This document shows positions 20,413 to 33,131 of a DNA stretch of 34,570 nucleotides, piece by piece. Each line of letters opens with the position of its first letter. The first letter of the stretch is position 1. Both the position numbers and the translations under genes were made by a program. Source of the stretch: an uncultured Pelagibacteraceae bacterium. GTDB taxonomy: Bacteria > Pseudomonadota > Alphaproteobacteria > Pelagibacterales > Pelagibacteraceae. The notes beneath the pieces are model-generated. The model did not search any database, was not told the origin of the DNA, and was given only the letters and a program-made list of their open reading frames with translations. Location of the stretch: positions 1 to 34,570 of the forward strand of contig CACOMK010000011.1 of the NCBI GenBank assembly GCA_902628305.1, read 5' to 3'.

Positions 20413-21237
20413 ATGTCTTATCTATCATCAAATCAACTTAAACAGTATAGAGATCAAGGTTATATATCCCCTATTGAAGTTTTGTCTAGTACCGAAGCAT
20501 TAGAGGCAAGAAGAGAAATTGAGTTAATTGAAAAAAAATTACCAAATGAAATAGATAAGTCAGGAAGATATAATGTTCATTTAATTTCTCCAAAACTTGA
20601 TTCGATTGTTCATAATTCAAAAATTTTAGATGCGGTAGAAAGTATTATTGGAAAAAACATACTAGTTTGTAGCACTACTTTGTTTATTAAAAACCCTAAT
20701 GAACAAGGTTTTGTAAGCTATCATCAAGATGCAAAATATATAGGATTAGAACCACACAATTGGGTTACAGCGTGGGTGGCATTAACAGACTCGAATGAAA
20801 ATAACGGATGTATGAAAATGTGGCCTAAATCCCATAATAATATTAGAGATCACAATCAAAAATTTAATGAAGGAAATTTACTTACGAGAGGACAAACAGT
20901 AGAGAATGTACCTGAAGATGAAGTTAAATCTATAGAACTAAAAGCTGGTCAAATGTCTTTGCATCATCCAAGAGTAGTACATGGGTCTGGTATTAATAAG
21001 AGTAATGACAGAAGAATAGGATTTGTTATTCAAAGTTACATTGGTACAAACGTAAAACAAACCTTAGGTAAAAATAGTGTTCAAATTGCAAGAGGAGAAG
21101 ATAAATATCGTCATCATAAAGTTATAAATAGAACTACTAATTTAATGAGTGAAGAGAGTATTTTACTTCGAAAAAAAGAAAATGATTATTTGCAAGAAAT
21201 TTTTTATAAAGGTGCAAATCAAAAAGGATCTTATTAA
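20413..21237 (+). CDS. Phytanoyl-CoA dioxygenase (PhyH) family protein
   Basis: Non-haem Fe(II)/2-oxoglutarate-dependent dioxygenase of the family that includes phytanoyl-CoA and ectoine hydroxylases. The metal triad is visible as His104-x-Asp106 (SYHQDAKY) and the distal His190 (RVVHGSG). Arg200/201 follows, to bind 2-oxoglutarate. The presence of Asp106 argues for hydroxylation rather than halogenation. GCMKMWPKSHNN is the typical PhyH strand before the second His. The 274 residues are typical. Its substrate cannot be read from sequence; no ectoine or phosphonate genes are adjacent. Two unassigned small genes follow at 8 and 11 bases and probably share its transcript. Confidence 0.88.
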   Translation: MSYLSSNQLKQYRDQGYISPIEVLSSTEALEARREIELIEKKLPNEIDKSGRYNVHLISPKLDSIVHNSKILDAVESIIGKNILVCSTTLFIKNPNEQGFVSYHQDAKYIGLEPHNWVTAWVALTDSNENNGCMKMWPKSHNNIRDHNQKFNEGNLLTRGQTVENVPEDEVKSIELKAGQMSLHHPRVVHGSGINKSNDRRIGFVIQSYIGTNVKQTLGKNSVQIARGEDKYRHHKVINRTTNLMSEESILLRKKENDYLQEIFYKGANQKGSY

Positions 21238-21724: not shown

Positions 21725-21952
21725 ATGAAAAAAGAAAACGCAAGTAAACTCTGGAAAATTATTCAGGAAGCTGGCGATTATTTGGTGGGTCAATTACCTG
21801 ACCACCCAAATCACCCTAAAGGAAGAAACCCCTATGCTCATGTTGCTATTTGTGTGAAGAGTAAGTTTAACGCAAGTTATAAAGATATTCCTGACGAACA
21901 ATATGATGAAGTAATAAAATATATTGAGTTTTTAAAAGAAAATCCTAGTTAG
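21725..21952 (+). CDS. Small protein of unknown function, resembling a phage antirepressor C-terminal region
   Basis: A 75-residue soluble protein. The phrases NPYAHVAICVKSKFNASYKD and IPDEQYDEVIKYIEFLKE recall the short C-terminal domain of P22-type antirepressors (P22_AR_C/ORF6C-like), in which a helix-turn segment on a 'Y-x-D/E-I/L-P' pattern follows a conserved Asn/His region. This similarity is from memory and unverified. No other phage gene is nearby. A repeated Pro/His/Asn patch, QLPDHPNHPKGRNPY, precedes it. The gene follows the 155-residue protein by 11 bases. Its last 8 bases overlap the convergent threonine aldolase. Confidence 0.7.
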   Translation: MKKENASKLWKIIQEAGDYLVGQLPDHPNHPKGRNPYAHVAICVKSKFNASYKDIPDEQYDEVIKYIEFLKENPS

Positions 21953-22994
21953 CTTTAATTGTATCTAACAATTCATCAACATCACTAGCTTTAGTATTCC
22001 AAGCAGCAACTAATCTTACCGCTTTGCCATCTAATTCCTCCTCATTTATTTTATAACCTTCGGAATTTAGATGCTCTATTTTTTCTCTTGGAAATTTTAC
22101 AAATACTTCATTTGCTTCTGTTGGGTAAGCAATTTCAATATCTTTATACTTGCTTAATCCGTCACTTAACTTTTTTCCCATTGCATTAGCGTGCTTTGCA
22201 TTTCTCAACCAAACATCATTTGAAATGTAAGCATCTAATTGTGCAGAGACAAAACGCATTTTAGATAGTAAATGCCCTGCTCTTTTCATTAAAAAGGCAA
22301 TGTCCCCGACTAATTCTTTCTTAAAAAATATAATTGCTTCAGCTGCAAGACATCCATTTTTAGTTGCTCCAAATGACAATACATCAACCCCAGATTTCCA
22401 TGTCATTTCAGCAGGAGTTACATCTAAGGAGACCAATGCATTAGCAAATCTAGCGCCATCCATATGTAAATTTAAGTTATGTTTATGGGTGATTTCTGAA
22501 ATTTTTTTAATTTCATCTAATTGATAAACTTCACCTGTTTCACAAACCTGAGTAATACTAACTGATGAAGGTTGGGTATGATGAACAATTCCTTTTCCAC
22601 CTATTGATTGATCTAACTCCTCTGAAGTTATTTTTCCCATTACTCCATTTAATGTAACTAACTTTCCTCCTCCTGTATAAAATTCAGGTGCACCACATTC
22701 ATCGGTGTTTATGTGGGACATTTTATGACAATAAATGTTTCCATAAGATGGAGTCATTGTAGATAATGCTAAAGCATTAGCTGCAGTTCCTGAAGCAGTA
22801 GGAAAAACAATTACCTCTTTTTCAAAAATTTCTGAAAACTTATCTTGTAATTCAGTTGATATTGGGTCATTACCATACGGCGTACTATCTCCTTCATTGG
22901 CTTTTAAAATTGCATCTAGTACTTCAGGACAAGCACCAGCAACATTATCAGAAGCGAATTTAACTCGCTCTCTTTTTATTTTAATTTTTGCCAT
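21945..22994 (-). CDS. ltaE: Low-specificity L-threonine aldolase (beta-eliminating lyase family)
   Basis: PLP enzyme of fold type I that cleaves L-threonine or allo-threonine to glycine plus acetaldehyde. Features are SDNVAGACPEVLDAI at the N-terminus, the cofactor-binding TASGTAANALAL (66-77), HMDGARFANA with Asp179 and Arg182, and the PLP lysine Lys212 in SFGATKNG. The 349 residues match the family. It is the last gene of the operon with the amidinotransferase (2 bases upstream) and creatinase. This suggests that glycine release is a shared theme, since SAR11 cultures need glycine or a precursor. A related beta-hydroxy amino acid as true substrate is possible. Confidence 0.92.
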   Translation of the reverse strand: MAKIKIKRERVKFASDNVAGACPEVLDAILKANEGDSTPYGNDPISTELQDKFSEIFEKEVIVFPTASGTAANALALSTMTPSYGNIYCHKMSHINTDECGAPEFYTGGGKLVTLNGVMGKITSEELDQSIGGKGIVHHTQPSSVSITQVCETGEVYQLDEIKKISEITHKHNLNLHMDGARFANALVSLDVTPAEMTWKSGVDVLSFGATKNGCLAAEAIIFFKKELVGDIAFLMKRAGHLLSKMRFVSAQLDAYISNDVWLRNAKHANAMGKKLSDGLSKYKDIEIAYPTEANEVFVKFPREKIEHLNSEGYKINEEELDGKAVRLVAAWNTKASDVDELLDTIKAN

Positions 22995-22996
22995 AA

Positions 22997-24112
22997 TTAT
23001 TGTTTTGGAAAGTAATCTTTAAGTTCACCCTCTCGGTAAACATCCGCAGTACAACAATGTAAACCTCCGCCAAAAGCGTAGGCATCTCTAAGCTCTACAG
23101 GTATAACTTCCATCCCTAATTTATCTAGTTGTTCAGCTTGATAAGTTTCACTTTTTTCAACACACACAGTTTTAGGATCCAAAACCAAAACATTCATTGA
23201 TAGCCAAGTTGATGAATAACATAATGGCGGTGGTTCGTTATGTGCTGGTTGTGCACTGTCTAAGATTTCCCAACCATTGTCTTCAAATAATTTTCTTTGT
23301 TCTTTAGGAAGTCTTCTTTGTGGGTTATTGATAATTAAACCCTCTTTTATCGGGGTAAAAGTTGCATCAATATGAATTGGATAAGGATCACCTGGGAAGT
23401 TAACTGCGTGAACTCTATGATCTTTATAATGTCTTTTAAGCCAATCAATTCCTTTTAAATTTGTTGTAAATCCATGTTGTACAACCAAGTCTTTTCCAAA
23501 TCTTAGTACGTCTGCTGCATCAAACAATGGTTCCTCTTCTGTAGTTACAAAATATTTTTTTTCAGTCCACTCTAATCTTTTTTGAACACCAATTTTGTCT
23601 GATAAATAATCTTTTCTATAATCAGCATCTGTTAATCTTGGTTTTGGAGCAGACTCGTGTCTCATTTTAGGATCTTGATTATAATAATCTTTTAAAAGTG
23701 GTCGGTAACATAAATATTCAAACCAACGACAACGGTAACTCATAGTTGCCTCTAAAATTTCATTACCCACAGTTAACAAGACATCTCTTGGAGGCATGCA
23801 GCCAAACATTGTTTCTGCTTCCCAATCTGGTGTGGATGTTTTTTGGTTAAAATCAATTGGTGTTGGTCGATCAACTTTAATATCTCTTTTTTGAAGCATG
23901 TTTGAAAAGTTATCTAATAATTCATTTGCTTTATCGACAGTATCTTTTGTTCTTGGTCCAAATTGACCTCGCATATCACTATCTTCAGGAACTTTTGCAT
24001 CCAAAGCAGGCTCTGGTGCTGGTATACAAGTGCCATCCGCTCTTCCAACAATTACATGTTTTAATGGATCCCACTCATTCCAACTATTAACAATAGTTTT
24101 ATTCTCACTCAT
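22997..24112 (-). CDS. Glycine amidinotransferase (AGAT/GATM) family enzyme
   Basis: Transfers the amidino group between arginine and an amine such as glycine, giving guanidinoacetate and ornithine; the reaction is reversible. NSWNEWDPLKHVIVGRADG begins the fold. The triad known from human GATM (Asp254, His303, Cys407) is retained as Asp198 in LFDAADV, His247 in IHIDATF and Cys353 in GGGLHCCTADV. SSTWLSMN and NEILEATMSYRCRWFEY are further conserved blocks. The human sequence NPMH before the loop changes to YPIH here, altering the two residues that I recall as lining the acceptor pocket, so the amine acceptor may not be glycine. It sits 5 bases after creatinase and 2 before threonine aldolase. 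No guanidinoacetate methyltransferase is present. Confidence 0.9.
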   Translation of the reverse strand: MSENKTIVNSWNEWDPLKHVIVGRADGTCIPAPEPALDAKVPEDSDMRGQFGPRTKDTVDKANELLDNFSNMLQKRDIKVDRPTPIDFNQKTSTPDWEAETMFGCMPPRDVLLTVGNEILEATMSYRCRWFEYLCYRPLLKDYYNQDPKMRHESAPKPRLTDADYRKDYLSDKIGVQKRLEWTEKKYFVTTEEEPLFDAADVLRFGKDLVVQHGFTTNLKGIDWLKRHYKDHRVHAVNFPGDPYPIHIDATFTPIKEGLIINNPQRRLPKEQRKLFEDNGWEILDSAQPAHNEPPPLCYSSTWLSMNVLVLDPKTVCVEKSETYQAEQLDKLGMEVIPVELRDAYAFGGGLHCCTADVYREGELKDYFPKQ

Positions 24113-24117
24113 AAAGC

Positions 24118-25335
24118 TTAATTTTTTATAATATTATGGTCTGGGCCGAAAGGAAATTTTGTAATATTTTCTGCTCCATCTTTACCAATCACTAAAATAT
24201 CGTGTTCTCGATATCCACCTGCACCAGGATTACCTTCTGGTATCATGATCATTGGCTCCATCGAAACAACCATGTTTTCTACTAACACCGTATCAATATC
24301 TTCCCTTAGTTCTAATCCAGCCTCTCTCCCATAAAAATGTGAGAGCATACCAAATGAATGTCCGTAACCAAAAGTTCGATATTGAAGATAACCAAGTTCA
24401 GCAAAAAGTTCGTTAAGCTCATGACAAATATCAGAACACTTTACGCCTGGTTTAATTAATTCTAATCCACGTTTGTGAACTTTAACGTTTGCCTCCCAAG
24501 CTTTAAGAGATGCATCATCTGCATGATCTAAGAATAAAGTTCGCTCAAGTGCAGTATAATATCCTGAGATCATTGGAAAAGTATTTAAAGATATAATATC
24601 TCCTTTAATTAATTTTCTATTAGTCTTTGGGTTGTGAGCTCCATCTGTATTGATACCAGATTGAAACCATACCCAAGTATCCATGTACTCTGCACCTGGA
24701 TAACTTTTAACTATCTCTCTTTCCATTCTATCTCTTGCTGCTATAGCTACTTCGATCTCTGTATTGCCTTCTCTAATATTTTTAACTATTTCTTCACCAC
24801 CAATGTCTGCAATTCTTGCGCCATTTCTAATGATCTCAATTTCTTCATTTGATTTAATCATTCTAAGTTTCATTAGATCTTTTGAAACATCACTAAACAC
24901 AGAGAAAGTAAAAATAGACCCTATTTTTTCTTGCATATCTAACGTGACATGATCATTTTCTATTCCAATATTTTTTGGAGTTTCATCTCTTCCAATAATT
25001 GAAACAATGGCTCTTAAAAAATTATCTCTTTTCCAATCAGTATAAATAACGTTATCACAATGGGATCTACGCCACGGTTGACTTGCATCAATGTTAGCTG
25101 AAATTGTTGAGATTTTATTTTGAGTGATCACACATCCGTAAGGTCTACCAAAAGAGCAATAAATAAAACCTGTGTAATATGCAACGTTATGCATTGAGGT
25201 TAAGATAATCATATCAAGACCATTTTGATCCATAACTGATCTAAGTTTGCTTACTCGATCAATATATTCTTTATCTGTAAATGGTAATTTTACTTTTTCA
25301 CCATTTTTAAGTTCAAAAAAATCTGGTCGTTCCAT
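24118..25335 (-). CDS. Creatinase (creatine amidinohydrolase), M24 fold
   Basis: Hydrolyses creatine to sarcosine and urea. The protein follows Pseudomonas creatinase almost throughout: CSFGRPYG with Arg64, ISANIDASQPWRR, VIYTDWKRDN, FQSGINTDGAHNP with catalytic His234, ALERTLFLD with Glu264, FGYGHSFG, GREAGLELREDIDTV with Arg337, and VSMEPMIM with Glu360. These correspond to the reported carboxylate and guanidinium contacts (Arg64, His232, Glu262, Arg335, Glu358). It does not show the metal-ligand pattern of M24 aminopeptidases. The 405 residues match the family (403). It lies between an EamA transporter (1 base) and the amidinotransferase (5 bases). Guanidinoacetate could be an alternative substrate, giving glycine plus urea. 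Confidence 0.93.
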   Translation of the reverse strand: MERPDFFELKNGEKVKLPFTDKEYIDRVSKLRSVMDQNGLDMIILTSMHNVAYYTGFIYCSFGRPYGCVITQNKISTISANIDASQPWRRSHCDNVIYTDWKRDNFLRAIVSIIGRDETPKNIGIENDHVTLDMQEKIGSIFTFSVFSDVSKDLMKLRMIKSNEEIEIIRNGARIADIGGEEIVKNIREGNTEIEVAIAARDRMEREIVKSYPGAEYMDTWVWFQSGINTDGAHNPKTNRKLIKGDIISLNTFPMISGYYTALERTLFLDHADDASLKAWEANVKVHKRGLELIKPGVKCSDICHELNELFAELGYLQYRTFGYGHSFGMLSHFYGREAGLELREDIDTVLVENMVVSMEPMIMIPEGNPGAGGYREHDILVIGKDGAENITKFPFGPDHNIIKN

Positions 25336-25336
25336 A

Positions 25337-26242
25337 TTAATTTAATGCTATATATCTTTTATTCCATCTCATTATTAAACTGTAATAAAATATAGATACG
25401 AAAAGAAAAAAGCCACCGATTATAGTATTTGTGGATGGCACTTCGTTAATCCCAAATAATGGCAACCAAACCCAAAAAATGCCACCTACAACTTCAGTTA
25501 AAGATAATAAAGTCAATTCTGCTGCTGGTATCGCTTTAGATCCAATTGAATATAAAATTAAACCAAAACAAACTAGTGTCCCATGCAAAGAAAATAAAGC
25601 TCCATTGTAGCTAGATGAAAAGAAAACTAAGTTGTTTGATAAAATCATAATTGTTGCAAACACAAAACAAAAGAAACCTGCAAAAGCCACAGTTGTGAAT
25701 TTAGGTGTTTCTTTTCTCCATCTTAAAGTTACAGAAAAAACTGAGAAGCCAATTGAAGAAGTTAAACCAAATACAAAACCAATTAATGATTTTTCACCAG
25801 TGTTTCCAAATGCCATAATAATGATACCAACTGTTGCAATTAATATTGATATCCAAACATTGAGAGAAATTTTTTCTCTTAAAAATAAAAATGCCAATAA
25901 TGCTGTAAAAAAAGGCATTGCTGCCAAACAAAGCAAAGTAACTGCAGCACTAGTATTTGTAATTGAATAAATAAACGTAATCATAGCAATCCCCAATCCA
26001 GACCCGCCGATTACTCCAGATAAACCTATTTTATAATAGTTTTTATAAAAACTTTTTCCTTCCTCAAAAAATAAATAAAGATTTAATAGGATGAAAATTG
26101 TTAAACCTCTGCCAAAAATATACTGCCAAGGTGCTAATTGAGGATTATCCATGTATCTAACCACTAATGGGCCAAACGACCATAATAGACCGGCAAAAAG
26201 CACAACAGGAATGGCTATTCTTGGATTTCTTAGCTCTAGCAT
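25337..26242 (-). CDS. EamA/DMT-family transporter of the creatinase operon
   Basis: Ten-helix membrane transporter made of two EamA repeats, 301 residues. The first helix, AIPVVLFAGLLWSFGPLVV, is at about 10-28. The first repeat ends with FLREKISLNVWISILIATVG (about 120-139), the usual family boundary. The second repeat has SKAIPAAELTLLSLTEVVGG and a final helix near 275-292. It is the first gene of the four-gene operon, with its stop one base before the creatinase start. Operon context suggests it moves creatine, sarcosine, guanidinoacetate, urea or an amino acid, but the direction and substrate are unknown; many EamA proteins export. It lies 49 bases after moeA, which may share its transcript. 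Confidence 0.88.
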   Translation of the reverse strand: MLELRNPRIAIPVVLFAGLLWSFGPLVVRYMDNPQLAPWQYIFGRGLTIFILLNLYLFFEEGKSFYKNYYKIGLSGVIGGSGLGIAMITFIYSITNTSAAVTLLCLAAMPFFTALLAFLFLREKISLNVWISILIATVGIIIMAFGNTGEKSLIGFVFGLTSSIGFSVFSVTLRWRKETPKFTTVAFAGFFCFVFATIMILSNNLVFFSSSYNGALFSLHGTLVCFGLILYSIGSKAIPAAELTLLSLTEVVGGIFWVWLPLFGINEVPSTNTIIGGFFLFVSIFYYSLIMRWNKRYIALN

Positions 26243-26291: not shown

Positions 26292-27542
26292 CTAAATTAA
26301 AGTTTGGTTGTGGTGGTTGGGGAAAAAACAATCTACTATCTCCCCTTTTTTAAATTTTGCTTTACCATCTGGCAACAAAACCCAAATATTAGAATTTACA
26401 AAAGATTTAATCCTAAAAGATTCCTGTCCATCTAAAATTTCAACTTCTAATTTTCCATCTTTAGTTGTGCTTAGTTTACTTTTAACAAATCTAGTAAATA
26501 ACTTTTTTTTTATAAAATTATTTTTTAATTTAGCTTTAATCGACATTTCAGGATTTAAACCTAGAATATTCTGTATATAGGGAAAAACAAAAAATCTAAA
26601 ACATGCTGCGGTTGAAATTGGATTTCCAGGTAAACCAAATATTACTTTTGATTTACCTTTAAATTTTGCAAATAATATTGGTTTTCCTGGCCTTATTGAA
26701 ACATTTTTAAATGAGTGGGATAATTTTAATTTATTTATTACTTTTGGAATAAAATCAAACTTACCTTTTGAAACTGCTCCTGAGGTAATTATTATGTTTG
26801 TTTTAGACATTAAAATTTTTAATAGTTTTTTATAAAATTTATCCTCATCGTTATCTCTTAAAATTCCTAAATTTTTAAAATTAAATAAAAAACTATTATT
26901 TAAGCTTTTTAAATAATAATAATTTGAATTTCTTATTTTCCATTTATCAATAAATTTTTTTTCAGAAATTTCATTGCCAGAAGAAAAAAAAACAACATTT
27001 ATTTTTTTTTTTACGTTAATCTTTTCAATACCAAGAGCTTTTAAAGCCTTAATATGACTAGAGTTAATTAAAGTATTTTTCTTAATAACGAGATCTTTAA
27101 ATTTGTAATCAGATCCTTTCAATCTCACATTTTCAAATTTTTTATAGGTTTTTTTAATTAGAATATATCTATTTTTTCTATCTTTAATTAAGGTGCAGTC
27201 TTCGATAGGTATTATTGAATTACTACCATTTGGCATAATGCCTCCAGTCATAATTTCTACAGCCTCGTTTTTTTTTAAAATTTTTCTATATGGTTTTGAT
27301 CCAGCAGAAATAGATCCTACAATTTTAAATTTTTTAGAGTTCTTATGTGAAACATCTTTAGTGTGATTTAATTTAATAGCAAAACCATCTAATGAAGAAT
27401 TATTTTCAGATGGATAATTATTCTTTGCATAAATATTAGACGAGCAGATCCTATTTAAACCACTCATACTTTTAATTATTTCGTTAGAAATTTTTATTTG
27501 TGATTTTTTTAAAATTTTAAGTGCTTCGTTATATGATTTCAT
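26292..27542 (-). CDS. moeA: Molybdopterin molybdenumtransferase MoeA
   Basis: Inserts molybdate into adenylylated molybdopterin to finish the molybdenum cofactor. The N-terminus has SYNEALKILKK and the conserved block NNSSLDGFAIK. The central part has GGIMPNGSNSIIPIED. Then come FFSSGNEI and the MoCF-like domain with TSGAVSKGKFDFIP (usually TTGGxSVGxxD) and VIFGLPGNPIS, with the C-terminal beta-barrel after about 340. The 416 residues match the family. Base composition is strikingly A/T-rich with long Lys/Asn runs. Its presence implies at least one molybdoenzyme elsewhere, since the formate dehydrogenase here is the metal-free type. It diverges from a SufU-like gene across 35 bases. Confidence 0.92.
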   Translation of the reverse strand: MKSYNEALKILKKSQIKISNEIIKSMSGLNRICSSNIYAKNNYPSENNSSLDGFAIKLNHTKDVSHKNSKKFKIVGSISAGSKPYRKILKKNEAVEIMTGGIMPNGSNSIIPIEDCTLIKDRKNRYILIKKTYKKFENVRLKGSDYKFKDLVIKKNTLINSSHIKALKALGIEKINVKKKINVVFFSSGNEISEKKFIDKWKIRNSNYYYLKSLNNSFLFNFKNLGILRDNDEDKFYKKLLKILMSKTNIIITSGAVSKGKFDFIPKVINKLKLSHSFKNVSIRPGKPILFAKFKGKSKVIFGLPGNPISTAACFRFFVFPYIQNILGLNPEMSIKAKLKNNFIKKKLFTRFVKSKLSTTKDGKLEVEILDGQESFRIKSFVNSNIWVLLPDGKAKFKKGEIVDCFFPNHHNQTLI

Positions 27543-28518: not shown

Positions 28519-29718
28519 ATGAAAATACTATGTGTATTATATGATGATCCTAAAGGTGGTATGCCTGAAACTTATCCACTATCGGATCTTCCAAAACTAG
28601 AAAAGTATCCAGATGGAATGACACTTCCATCTCCAAAGGGACGGGATTTCACACCTGGAGAATTACTTGGTTGTGTTTCTGGTGAATTGGGTCTGAGAAA
28701 ATTTTTAGAGAGTAACGGACATGAATTAATTGTAACAAATAGCAAAGATGGTGATGGATGTGAAGCAGACAAACATATTGTTGATGCAGATATAGTAATC
28801 TCTCAACCGTTTTTTCCATACTATTTAACAAAAGAAAAAATAGAAAAAGCAAAAAATCTTAAAATGGCAATTACCGCAGGTATAGGTTCAGACCATGTTG
28901 ATTTGCAAGCTGCAATGGATCACAAAATTGATGTTGTAGAGGTTACATTCTGTAACTCAAGATCTGTTGCTGAACATATTGTTATGATGATTGTATCTAT
29001 GGTAAGAGATTATCACAATCAACATAGAATTGTTAACGAAGGTGGATGGAATATTGCAGATGCAGTTCAAAGATCATATGACGTAGAAGGTATGCATATT
29101 GGAACAGTAGCAGCTGGTAGAATTGGTCTAGATGCTTTGAGAAAAATGAAACCATTTGATGTACATTTACATTATTTTGATCGACATAGACTTCCTGAAA
29201 GTGTTGAGAAAGAATTAAATCTTACTTTTCATGAATCTGTAGAGTCAATGGTGAAAGTTTGTGATGTTGTAACAATCAACTGTCCACTTCACCCTGAAAC
29301 AGAGAACCTATTTGATGAAGCTATGATCAGTAAAATGAAAAAAGGAGCTTACATAGTTAATACTGCTAGAGGCAAAATTTGTAATCGTGAAGCAATTGCT
29401 AAAGCATTAGAAAGTGGACAGTTAAGTGGATATGCTGGTGATGTATGGTTTCCACAACCAGCACCAAATGACCATATATGGAGAAGCATGCCTCATCATG
29501 GTATGACGCCTCATACATCAGGAACATCTTTATCAGCTCAGGCAAGATATGCTGATGGTGTCAGAGAAATTTTAGAGTGTTTCTTTGAAGGTAGAGAGAT
29601 AAGAAATCAATACTTAATTGTTCAGAATGGACAATTAGCAGGTATGGGTGCTCATTCTTACAGTAAAGGATCTGCTACTAGTGGCTCAGAAGAAGCTGCA
29701 AAATATAAGAAAAAATAA
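28519..29718 (+). CDS. NAD-dependent formate dehydrogenase
   Basis: Metal-free D-2-hydroxyacid dehydrogenase family enzyme that oxidises formate to CO2 and makes NADH. It follows the methylotroph enzyme closely: LCVLYDDP at the N-terminus, SQPFFPYYLT, ITAGIGSDHVDLQ, VTFCNSRSVAEH, the NAD loop GTVAAGRIG (about 197-205), FDRHRLPESVEKEL, VNTARGK with its catalytic Arg, YAGDVWFPQPAPNDH, the catalytic His in TPHTSGT, and a C-terminal GAHSYSKGSAT block. The 399 residues match (about 400). It has a strong ribosome binding site and an intrinsic terminator, so it is probably a single, well-expressed gene. SAR11 cells are known to oxidise C1 compounds. With the FAD oxidoreductase at 32028-33131 it could finish oxidation of methyl groups. 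Confidence 0.97.
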   Translation: MKILCVLYDDPKGGMPETYPLSDLPKLEKYPDGMTLPSPKGRDFTPGELLGCVSGELGLRKFLESNGHELIVTNSKDGDGCEADKHIVDADIVISQPFFPYYLTKEKIEKAKNLKMAITAGIGSDHVDLQAAMDHKIDVVEVTFCNSRSVAEHIVMMIVSMVRDYHNQHRIVNEGGWNIADAVQRSYDVEGMHIGTVAAGRIGLDALRKMKPFDVHLHYFDRHRLPESVEKELNLTFHESVESMVKVCDVVTINCPLHPETENLFDEAMISKMKKGAYIVNTARGKICNREAIAKALESGQLSGYAGDVWFPQPAPNDHIWRSMPHHGMTPHTSGTSLSAQARYADGVREILECFFEGREIRNQYLIVQNGQLAGMGAHSYSKGSATSGSEEAAKYKKK

Positions 29719-31224: not shown

Positions 31225-32031
31225 ATGAAAACAAAATACAAAATTTTTTTTGCAAAAGTTTTATATTATTTAATAACATTGTTTATTTCAAAAAATCAAA
31301 TTGTACAAAGAAAAAAGATTAATTGGAGCCTAGACCTTAGAGAGGGCATAGATTTATCAATTTTTTTGTTTGGAAGCTCAGAAAGTAAAATTTTCAATTT
31401 AAAAAAACTTTTGAATTTAAATTCGAGACTTTTTTTTTTAGATATAGGTGCAAATATTGGGTCTGTTAGTTTAACTCTGGCTAAAGTATTTGATAATAGT
31501 AAAGTTTATTCATTTGAACCAACGTATTACGCTTTTAAAAAATTAAAAAAAAATCTCTCTCTTAATAGAGATCTAAAAGATAAAGTAATTTTAAATCAAT
31601 TATTTATATCTAATATAAAAAAACCATCAAAAGTTTGGTCAAGCTGGAAATTAAATAATAAAAAAAATAGACATAAAAATCATAAAGGTAGTCTTAAATC
31701 TATAAAAAAAAATTCATTTATTTCTTTAGATAACTTTATAAAAAGTAAAAAAATAAGAAAGATAGACTTTATTAAGATAGATGTTGATGGCTATGAACTA
31801 GATGTATTAAGAAGTGGTTCAAAGTTTTTCAAGAAATGTAAACCAATAATTTTTATTGAAATTGCTCCATATCTTTATAAAGAATTTGGATATCATTTCT
31901 CAGATTTAATAAAATTTATTAAAAAATATAATTATAATTTTTACGATGAAAATTTACATAAAATAAATGATATAAATATTTTATTAAAAAAAATGAAAAA
32001 TGGTTCTAGTAAAAATTTTTTTTTATATTAG
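31225..32031 (+). CDS. FkbM family methyltransferase
   Basis: SAM-dependent methyltransferase of the FkbM family, which often O-methylates sugars or lipids, with acceptor unknown here. The SAM-binding loop FFLDIGANIGSVSLTLA is at about 70-86, VYSFEP follows at about 96-101, and the second conserved block IDFIKIDVDGYELDVLRSG at about 180-198 is typical of FkbM. A hydrophobic N-terminal stretch at about 8-22 (IFFAKVLYYLITLFI) could anchor the protein. The Lys-rich, A/T-rich coding sequence is more extreme than its neighbours. It lies 6 bases after selO; its stop overlaps the convergent FAD oxidoreductase by four bases. Confidence 0.88.
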   Translation: MKTKYKIFFAKVLYYLITLFISKNQIVQRKKINWSLDLREGIDLSIFLFGSSESKIFNLKKLLNLNSRLFFLDIGANIGSVSLTLAKVFDNSKVYSFEPTYYAFKKLKKNLSLNRDLKDKVILNQLFISNIKKPSKVWSSWKLNNKKNRHKNHKGSLKSIKKNSFISLDNFIKSKKIRKIDFIKIDVDGYELDVLRSGSKFFKKCKPIIFIEIAPYLYKEFGYHFSDLIKFIKKYNYNFYDENLHKINDINILLKKMKNGSSKNFFLY

Positions 32032-33131
32032 AGAACATAGGGTTCTGGTCTAGCAGAATTTCCTAATACTCTCTCGACAGCAAAATCACTTATATCTATT
32101 GTTTGGTAAGATCCTGTTGTAATTAACTCAGTTAATGCTCTACCAATACCTGGTGCTTGCATTAATCCTCGACCTGTAAATCCAGAAGCCATATAAACAT
32201 TTTCATATTTTGGATGTTTGCCAACAACTGCATTGTTATCTAATCTATTGCAATCATAATATCCTGCCCATCCACCGGTTAACTTTAATTCTTCAAACAC
32301 AGGTATCCTCTTGGCTAAAGCTGGCCAAACTAATTCTTCAAAATCATTCCAAGCTGGTTCCAGATCATCTGCATCGAAAATAGAAACAGGTGATCCTGCT
32401 AAATATTCTCCACCCTCCGGTCTCCAATATACTCCCGTTGTTAAGTCTCCACTTAACGGCATCTCTTTTATATATGTTGGGCATTTAACTCTAAAAACGG
32501 TATGCTTTTGTGGAACAACTGGAATATCTTCTAATAATTCCTTTGTCCAACAACCAGCAGCAGAAACAATTGTTTTAGCATTTATTTCAGAAATACTTTT
32601 TACTTCACCTTTAATAAATTCAGCTCCAAGCTCTATTGCTTTACCTTTCAAAGCGCTATGAAACATAAATGGATCAATCCATCCTTCACTTTGATTATCT
32701 GTATACGTTGCTGTCTCAATCCCCTCACTATTAACATAAGGAAAAACTTTTGATAATTCTGATCCTTTAATATTTTTTGTTCCTGCATCACATTCTTTAT
32801 GATTTTCTAGTGCCCTATATTGTTCTTCAGCATGTTCAGGACCAAACATTAAAAGATATCCATTTGTAACCATACTAGCTGTAGGATTAGGATTTTTCTT
32901 TGTTTTTAATAATTCTGGTATTTGGAAAATAAATTCTCTTGCAAATTTTCCTAACAAAATATTTTCTTTTTGGAAAAATTGTCTTCTAAAGCCACCTAGA
33001 GACAATGGAAATGAGGCTGTCTTATAAGAAGGATCTCTCTCAATAACTTTAACTTTTCTACCCTCTTTGGATAAAAAATAAGCTGTTGCCGCCCCAATTA
33101 TTCCACCACCAATTACTACAACATCATCCAT
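32028..33131 (-). CDS. FAD-dependent oxidoreductase, DAO/sarcosine-oxidase superfamily
   Basis: Flavoprotein oxidising an amine or amino acid, possibly an N-methyl amino acid such as sarcosine. The dinucleotide-binding motif VVVIGGGIIGAATAYFL is at about 4-20, followed by the acidic residue in KVIERD. LSLGGFRRQF is typical of DAO-family proteins. TIVSAAGCWTKEL is the second conserved FAD contact, and the C-terminus has MASGFTGRGLMQAPGIG. No GAACGC-like covalent FAD site of monomeric sarcosine oxidase was recognised. The 367 residues match single-subunit oxidases or a heterotetrameric beta subunit. It is read two bases after tspO. The creatinase 7 kb away makes sarcosine, hence the interest, but other substrates are equally possible. 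Confidence 0.87.
   Translation of the reverse strand: MDDVVVIGGGIIGAATAYFLSKEGRKVKVIERDPSYKTASFPLSLGGFRRQFFQKENILLGKFAREFIFQIPELLKTKKNPNPTASMVTNGYLLMFGPEHAEEQYRALENHKECDAGTKNIKGSELSKVFPYVNSEGIETATYTDNQSEGWIDPFMFHSALKGKAIELGAEFIKGEVKSISEINAKTIVSAAGCWTKELLEDIPVVPQKHTVFRVKCPTYIKEMPLSGDLTTGVYWRPEGGEYLAGSPVSIFDADDLEPAWNDFEELVWPALAKRIPVFEELKLTGGWAGYYDCNRLDNNAVVGKHPKYENVYMASGFTGRGLMQAPGIGRALTELITTGSYQTIDISDFAVERVLGNSARPEPYVL

Follow-up and report, generated by a model that had tools for sequence, protein, structure and literature searches.

A conserved transporter-amidinotransferase pair with variable creatinase and aldolase genes in SAR11 bacteria: a possible unit for the salvage of guanidino compounds

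Gene content of the locus

A group of four closely packed genes was investigated on contig CACOMK010000011.1 of an uncultured Pelagibacteraceae bacterium (assembly GCA_902628305.1), of which the whole analysed stretch of 34,570 nucleotides is referred to as the window. The genome is of the Pelagibacter type (SAR11), a group inferred from its relatives, and is 69.7% complete. The genes are located at positions 21945-26242 and are predicted to encode a transporter, a creatinase, an amidinotransferase of the arginine:glycine amidinotransferase (AGAT) type and an aldolase dependent on pyridoxal phosphate (PLP), as follows in the order of transcription:

25337..26242, minus strand: EamA/DMT-family transporter (EamA2), first gene of the packed group, core (Pfam EamA)
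24118..25335, minus strand: creatinase (creatine amidinohydrolase), add-on (solved creatinases 7yto and 1chm)
22997..24112, minus strand: AGAT-type amidinotransferase, module core (human AGAT)
21945..22994, minus strand: PLP aldolase of the threonine/phenylserine aldolase type, add-on (1v72, 7yvr)

The four open reading frames are intact, without any internal stop, and are separated by 1, 5 and 2 bases. Matches above the Pfam cut-off were obtained for the aldolase (Beta_elim_lyase), the amidinotransferase (ADI), the creatinase (Peptidase_M24 and Creatinase_N) and the transporter (EamA, 62.5 bits against a cut-off of 28.2), while a scan of the four genes with NCBIfam gave no model over its cut-off. 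A first-pass annotation had described four tightly packed minus-strand genes of these families with their key residues preserved, and this is confirmed by the intact reading frames, the matches to Pfam and to solved structures, and the conserved motifs. Comparison of seven loci indicated purifying selection on all four genes, with dN/dS values between 0.03 and 0.16 (amidinotransferase 0.03-0.06, creatinase 0.05-0.10, aldolase 0.05-0.12, transporter 0.06-0.16). With the gene order recurring in related genomes and all genes under purifying selection, the four-gene arrangement exceeds chance.

Conservation and modularity among SAR11 genomes

The amidinotransferase was detected in 107 of 297 genomes of the family, in 93 of the 127 genomes of good quality, and in 94 of 101 genomes of the genus (own genome included; G152 has only a second-type copy, 76% identical). 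From 89 classified loci, two that repeat L017 and L033 (L092 and L093) were removed, together with 13 loci without a transporter beside the amidinotransferase (eight from other genera, four second copies and the only copy of G152). The resulting core set holds 74 loci, 73 of the window's genus and one of another genus (L062). Close kin of the window are over-represented among the 89 loci, of which 29 are its nearest matches. In six of the 89 a flank is cut short by a contig end (L029, L030, L049, L061, L084, L087). Searches for single genes were done on chosen subsets of 80 genomes for creatinase, 55 for urease, 34 for the transporter and 25 for the aldolase.

Within the core set, the transporter and the amidinotransferase stand alone in 27 loci, are joined by creatinase in 17, by the aldolase in 14 and by both in 16. 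The full four-gene order thus recurs in 16 of the 74 other core SAR11 loci; its absence beyond this strain had been named beforehand as an objection to the proposed system, and that objection falls away. The same four layouts were found in a named set of 58 further SAR11 loci, independent of the first. The transporter adjoins the amidinotransferase, or the creatinase-amidinotransferase pair, in all 73 primary loci examined of the genus as well as in L062. Distances, stop codon included, amount to 3-17 bases between creatinase and amidinotransferase (49 loci) and to 2-19 bases between amidinotransferase and aldolase (61 loci). Mapped on the amidinotransferase tree, the transporter shows one state change, creatinase 7-9 and the aldolase 7-10, counts that cannot tell gain from loss and that differ between two trees from quick searches with many poorly supported forks (9 and 7 for creatinase, 7 and 10 for the aldolase).

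These results demonstrate that transporter and amidinotransferase form a conserved core, to which creatinase and aldolase are add-ons that vary independently. The idea of a single fixed four-gene operon, as the first-pass annotation had it, is ruled out by this independent coming and going. No support was obtained for a linkage between creatinase and aldolase beyond their shared neighbour, with only two supported independent pairs.

Where they occur, the add-ons are tied to the core. Creatinase was found in 31 of the 80 genomes searched, in every case directly adjoining the amidinotransferase (one of the 31, in G182, carries an internal stop), and in none of ten genomes without amidinotransferase. 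The aldolase was present in 10 of 25 genomes, adjoining the amidinotransferase in all ten. The transporter (E<=1e-90) was absent from all seven genomes of the genus that lack the amidinotransferase and present in all five of those searched that have it. Outside the genus the two core genes are frequently separated: the transporter occurs in G001 and G020 with no full amidinotransferase match, and in G002 and G050 both lie far from each other on the same contig. Three placements of creatinase relative to the amidinotransferase were observed: it lies upstream in most SAR11 and downstream in L072 and L079, which belong to other genera of the family, and the two genes are divergent in L119. Over 35 SAR11 loci, creatinase and amidinotransferase diverge in parallel (Mantel r 0.85, reached in 0 of 2000 permutations), which shared descent alone would also give.

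Further amidinotransferase genes were recorded. A second-type AGAT, 75-77% identical to that of the window, occurs in other gene groups in five genomes of the genus:

L086:6498-7607, L088:6498-7607, L089:6498-7607, L090:6498-7607, L091:674-1777: second-type AGAT

Its neighbours in L086, L088 and L089 are presumably EamA-like, 2OG-dioxygenase-like, HD-domain-like and luciferase-like monooxygenase genes. A distant amidinotransferase (about 30% identical) is present in four Pelagibacteraceae genomes (L129:5995-7167, L130:5989-7173, L131:6677-7777, L132:5989-7173), and fragments of a second one lie near the intact gene at L049:491-931, which holds a stop codon, and at L076:9271-9432. A mobile or viral origin was considered and rejected: single-protein scans of viral contigs, which detect close relatives only, returned one match of 16 residues for the amidinotransferase (L225) and none for creatinase.

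Sequence and predicted structure of the encoded proteins

Among solved relatives, the amidinotransferase scores highest with human AGAT (294 bits, with 156 identities over 361 positions, about 43%), followed by SxtG (222), HsvA (208) and StrB1 (176). Its AlphaFold model, of middling confidence (mean pLDDT 71), also best matches human AGAT (4jdw; Z 41.0, rmsd 2.5 over 353 residues), with Z values of 38.8 for SxtG, 38.2 for HsvA and 36.2 for StrB1. By sequence and by modelled fold, AGAT (1jdw/4jdw) is therefore the closest of the solved amidinotransferases. The motifs of the Asp-His-Cys triad (FDAA, HIDA and FGGxxHC) were found in 183 of 183 sequences, and the triad of the window protein aligns to D254, H303 and C407 of the human enzyme, which we take to be catalytic. 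Residues presumed to bind the guanidino and carboxylate groups in human AGAT are kept as well. In contrast to the human case, the gene here is part of a putative bacterial operon with a transporter.

The creatinase matches three solved creatinases over its full length (534 bits for 7yto, 532 for 1chm and 490 for the third), far above the next best proteins of the M24 family, Xaa-Pro dipeptidase (94 bits) and ectoine hydrolase (46 bits). Counted from the alignment, 232 of 401 positions (about 58%) are identical to the Pseudomonas enzyme 1chm. Residues F62, R64, H232, Y258, E262, H324, R335, E358 and H376 of the latter, which we assume to be catalytic or substrate-binding, are all identical in the window protein. 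All seven motifs of the creatinase alignment are present in it; among 53 homologues, not de-duplicated, six of them occur in 50 and the seventh in 47. From its sequence, the protein is a canonical creatinase and is predicted to hydrolyse creatine.

The nearest solved relatives of the aldolase, both matched over the full length, are the Pseudomonas protein 1v72 (named 'Aldolase', 367 bits) and the L-threonine aldolase 7yvr (353 bits); what distinguishes the SAR11 protein is its tie to an amidinotransferase. These relatives belong to a subtype other than low-specificity threonine aldolase, for which the protein stays below the NCBIfam cut-off (55.9 against 312 bits), as it does for the guanitoxin-type aldolase GntG (78.9 against 230 bits). 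The lysine of the FGATKNG motif, presumably the one binding PLP, is aligned identically.

Sarcosine oxidase, urease and the arginase family

The beta subunit of sarcosine oxidase was found above the family cut-off in all eight genomes searched, including the window's own. The enzyme families and the creatine, guanidinoacetate and glycine theme of the first-pass annotation are supported, and its interpretation as a whole is partly supported.

Urease was over the cut-off in 12 of 55 genomes, 11 of the 32 with creatinase and 1 of the 23 without it, a difference uncorrected for kinship and confounded by it, most of the genomes with urease being closely related to the window strain. Urease alpha is located on the creatinase contig, 46-52 kb away, in seven of the 11 (G244, G168, G156, G272, G236, G218, G088). 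No urease was found in the window's own genome, which is 69.7% complete. A protein of the arginase/agmatinase family was detected in 53 of the 55 genomes. According to the accessible text of PMC8437039, two cultured SAR11 strains encode no urease, and agmatine inhibited growth under nitrogen limitation, perhaps via urea.

Occurrence outside the family

A class sample of 386 genomes, 381 of them outside the family, was searched for close amidinotransferases (at least 60% identity). Outside the family, the amidinotransferase occurs in 6 genomes and creatinase in 44 (both genes in 4, amidinotransferase only in 2, creatinase only in 40, neither in 335; p = 0.002, kinship uncorrected). Creatinase is hence present in 4 of 6 Alphaproteobacteria genomes with amidinotransferase and in 40 of 375 without; the four come from two families, and in only one of them does creatinase adjoin the amidinotransferase, divergently (L119).

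Examination of 26 non-SAR11 loci revealed creatinase in one, a ureohydrolase accompanied by ABC importer genes or by an M24 hydrolase in four (L142, L148, L150, L152), an ectoine-use-like cluster in two (L123, L124), a group of GcvT-like, MttB-like and FAD oxidoreductase genes in one, SerC and SerA homologues in one, and in one more a weak match to a ureohydrolase, on the opposite strand at a distance of about 0.8 kb. The names SerC, SerA, GcvT, MttB and ornithine cyclodeaminase in these loci are our presumption, and the ectoine-use names are based on NCBIfam matches below cut-off (EutA, EutD/DoeA). Genes for uptake or breakdown, or creatinase, thus adjoin the amidinotransferase or lie within about 6 kb of it in 7 of the 26. 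Neither EamA2 nor the aldolase was found near the amidinotransferase in any of the 26 (E<=1e-25).

The amidinotransferase is packed with EutA- and DoeA/EutD-like genes at L123:3694-10113 and L124:9001-17575, and also in L072, L082 and L085, where the groups include an ABC importer. In L142, L148, L150 and L152 the ureohydrolase is accompanied by an M24 hydrolase, a PotD-like ABC importer or both; its nearest solved relatives are agmatinase, guanidinobutyrase and guanidinopropionase. The agmatinase-family genes of SAR11 were considered as orthologues of this linked ureohydrolase and rejected, with identities of only about 35%.

A possible role in guanidino salvage

We tentatively favour the view that the genes constitute a modular unit by which guanidino amino acids of the creatine/guanidinoacetate type are salvaged. 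The part of it based on sequence consists of the four enzyme families, the transporter-amidinotransferase core and the add-ons tied to that core; the direction of the reaction, the acceptor and the transported substrate are what we infer. A more specific version, possible and at the same time doubtful, is that an AGAT-type amidinotransferase working in reverse provides urease-free assimilation of guanidino nitrogen in SAR11. Imported guanidinoacetate (or a near relative) would pass its amidino group to ornithine in a single reaction yielding arginine and glycine, and creatinase and aldolase would serve as plug-in branches to further glycine.

In such a unit the transporter would bring the guanidino compound into the cell, and the amidinotransferase would transfer the amidino group from guanidinoacetate to ornithine, yielding glycine and arginine. 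Known AGATs are freely reversible ping-pong enzymes. Reverse transfer would let a cell lacking urease retain all three nitrogens and spare part of its arginine synthesis. Where creatinase is present, creatine would be split into sarcosine and urea, the sarcosine being further converted to glycine by sarcosine oxidase; a urease is also present in some relatives of the window strain. The aldolase, where present, would act on threonine, or on a related beta-hydroxy amino acid, to release glycine. All branches would end at glycine, and the guanidino group and glycine would be the common factors. The salvage reading would also account for the retention of the amidinotransferase in genomes that lack creatinase and urease.

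The conserved core pair with its modular make-up, and the exclusive adjacency of creatinase (31/31) and aldolase (10/10) to the amidinotransferase, count in favour of salvage. The co-occurrence outside SAR11, the parallel divergence, the three creatinase arrangements and the uptake or breakdown neighbours in 7 of 26 loci also appear to point to it, as do the sarcosine oxidase beta genes (8/8), the skew of urease to creatinase genomes and the equilibrium of AGAT, a reaction considered reversible, with an in vitro constant of about 1 for the pig-kidney enzyme as cited in the accessible text of PMC9950171.

Several points weigh against the salvage reading. Nothing in the data fixes the direction of the reaction or its substrate. 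The acceptor flap of the window protein is DPYPI instead of DPNPM in human AGAT, with Tyr and Ile in place of N300 and M302, so that the acceptor cannot be read off the sequence and glycine/guanidinoacetate is not certain as the substrate. The aldolase also makes glycine and fits glycine consumption equally, and so do the SerC and SerA homologues beside the amidinotransferase in one genome. Export is a frequent function of EamA proteins. In 16 of the 26 non-SAR11 loci the gene sets sought were all absent, and 21 of the 32 creatinase-bearing genomes show no urease, so that urea would be lost there. As a sign of control by glycine, a glycine riboswitch was searched for in the window and eight related loci, and no Rfam match reached the gathering threshold; no search of higher sensitivity was made.

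The two flap residues that set the protein apart from human AGAT make another acceptor a serious, if rather unlikely, rival. The amidinotransferase would then act on a different substrate, an amine or guanidino compound that the transporter handles; the Tyr/Ile flap would determine the specificity, and the neighbouring enzymes would process the compound. The flap reads DPYPI in 176 of 183 sequences and DPFPT or DLIPT in the other seven, and the accessible text of PMC4887976 gives DMHPM for AmtA and DIFPS for CyrA. Inosamine phosphate, polyamines or toxin precursors serve as substrates elsewhere in the fold family, and the sequences with a T-flap in L123 (PFPT) and L124 (LIPT) belong to the ectoine-use-like clusters. 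The flap, however, is not strictly defining for AGAT: CyrA differs there too and still converts glycine to guanidinoacetate, as described for the CyrA-type enzyme of another cyanobacterium (PMC5705970, accessible text). Human AGAT moreover exceeds SxtG, HsvA and StrB1 in both sequence score and fold, and the linkage to creatinase fits a creatine-like compound.

The forward reaction is judged unlikely. The aldolase would supply glycine, from which the amidinotransferase would make guanidinoacetate, arginine being converted to ornithine; EamA2 would export the guanidinoacetate, or it would be kept as a solute, and where creatinase is present and accepts it, glycine would be regenerated with a net conversion of arginine to ornithine and urea. 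Arginine and glycine are the usual substrates of AGAT, the frequent export function of EamA proteins agrees with this scheme, and glycine could be fed by the aldolase, found at the amidinotransferase locus only, and by the SerC/SerA homologues of the one genome. On the other hand, an oligotroph short of nitrogen would pay a high price for exporting a compound with three nitrogens. A cycle of the arginase kind would be redundant in the 53 of 55 genomes with an arginase/agmatinase-family protein, and in the 27 bare-core loci no linked enzyme would use up the guanidinoacetate, though no search was made for a methyltransferase in this role.

A plain creatine-use operon with amidinotransferase and aldolase as passengers is very improbable: creatinase is canonical, sarcosine oxidase is present and a creatinase adjoining a transporter is known in Corynebacterium and Pseudomonas (PMC8864220, accessible text), but creatinase is less widespread than the amidinotransferase and under weaker constraint, the transporter stays with the amidinotransferase, and 41 of the 74 core loci have no creatinase, so the whole module is not simply a creatine operon.

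Comparison with known systems

The creatine gene groups of Pseudomonas putida and Corynebacterium resemble the present locus in having creatinase beside a transporter gene and sarcosine oxidase elsewhere in the genome. Their transporter, in contrast, is of the MFS type (CreT), whereas here an EamA protein is kept with the amidinotransferase when creatinase is missing; the word 'amidinotransferase' does not occur in the main text of that report (PMC8864220). A Red Sea study of 2013 reported SAR11 creatinase as core of subgroup 1a and inferred the use of creatine for glycine, while 'sarcosine' and 'threonine aldolase' do not occur in its main text (PMC3686209). Creatine use was also inferred in AEGEAN169 (PMC11366302, accessible text), and both 'creatin' and 'amidinotransferase' are absent from the main text of PMC3160333. 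Literature searches, whose coverage mostly excludes subscription journals, found no paper on a SAR11 amidinotransferase or on this gene set. The novelty claimed in the first-pass annotation is to be narrowed, SAR11 creatinase and genes leading from creatine to glycine having been reported in 2013.

Flanking genes and transcription

One gene lies immediately upstream of the group:

26292..27542, minus strand: open reading frame, MoeA-like gene, 49 bases upstream of EamA2, not part of the function

The name MoeA-like is our assumption. With this gene only 49 bases upstream on the same strand, the transcript could exceed the four genes, and the MoeA-like gene is a possible first gene of a longer transcript. 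It evolves fast (dN/dS 0.25-0.34, 57-61% identity) compared with the strongly conserved neighbouring operon, adjoins only some EamA2-AGAT loci and is missing there in part of the relatives. A promoter scan of the window yielded 31 sites, no excess over the shuffle mean of 29.6, and a single terminator-like site was found, on the opposite strand. Elsewhere in the window, 20413-21237 encodes a PhyH-family protein whose best NCBIfam match, 'chlorinating enzyme', is below cut-off (78 against 226 bits), so it is not a member. An NAD-dependent formate dehydrogenase over its NCBIfam cut-off (28519-29718; 667 against 329 bits) and a DAO-type FAD oxidoreductase (32028-33131) are strongly conserved near the operon in many relatives.

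Significance

SAR11 bacteria are among the most numerous cells in the sea and require glycine, a need reportedly described by Tripp in 2009, and creatine in seawater is reportedly the subject of a study by Wawrik in 2017. The amidinotransferase is kept under strong constraint in most genomes of the genus. If the salvage reading is true, SAR11 cells would draw, without urease, on a pool of dissolved organic nitrogen that has been neglected, and the module would help to explain the glycine source of a glycine-requiring oligotroph.

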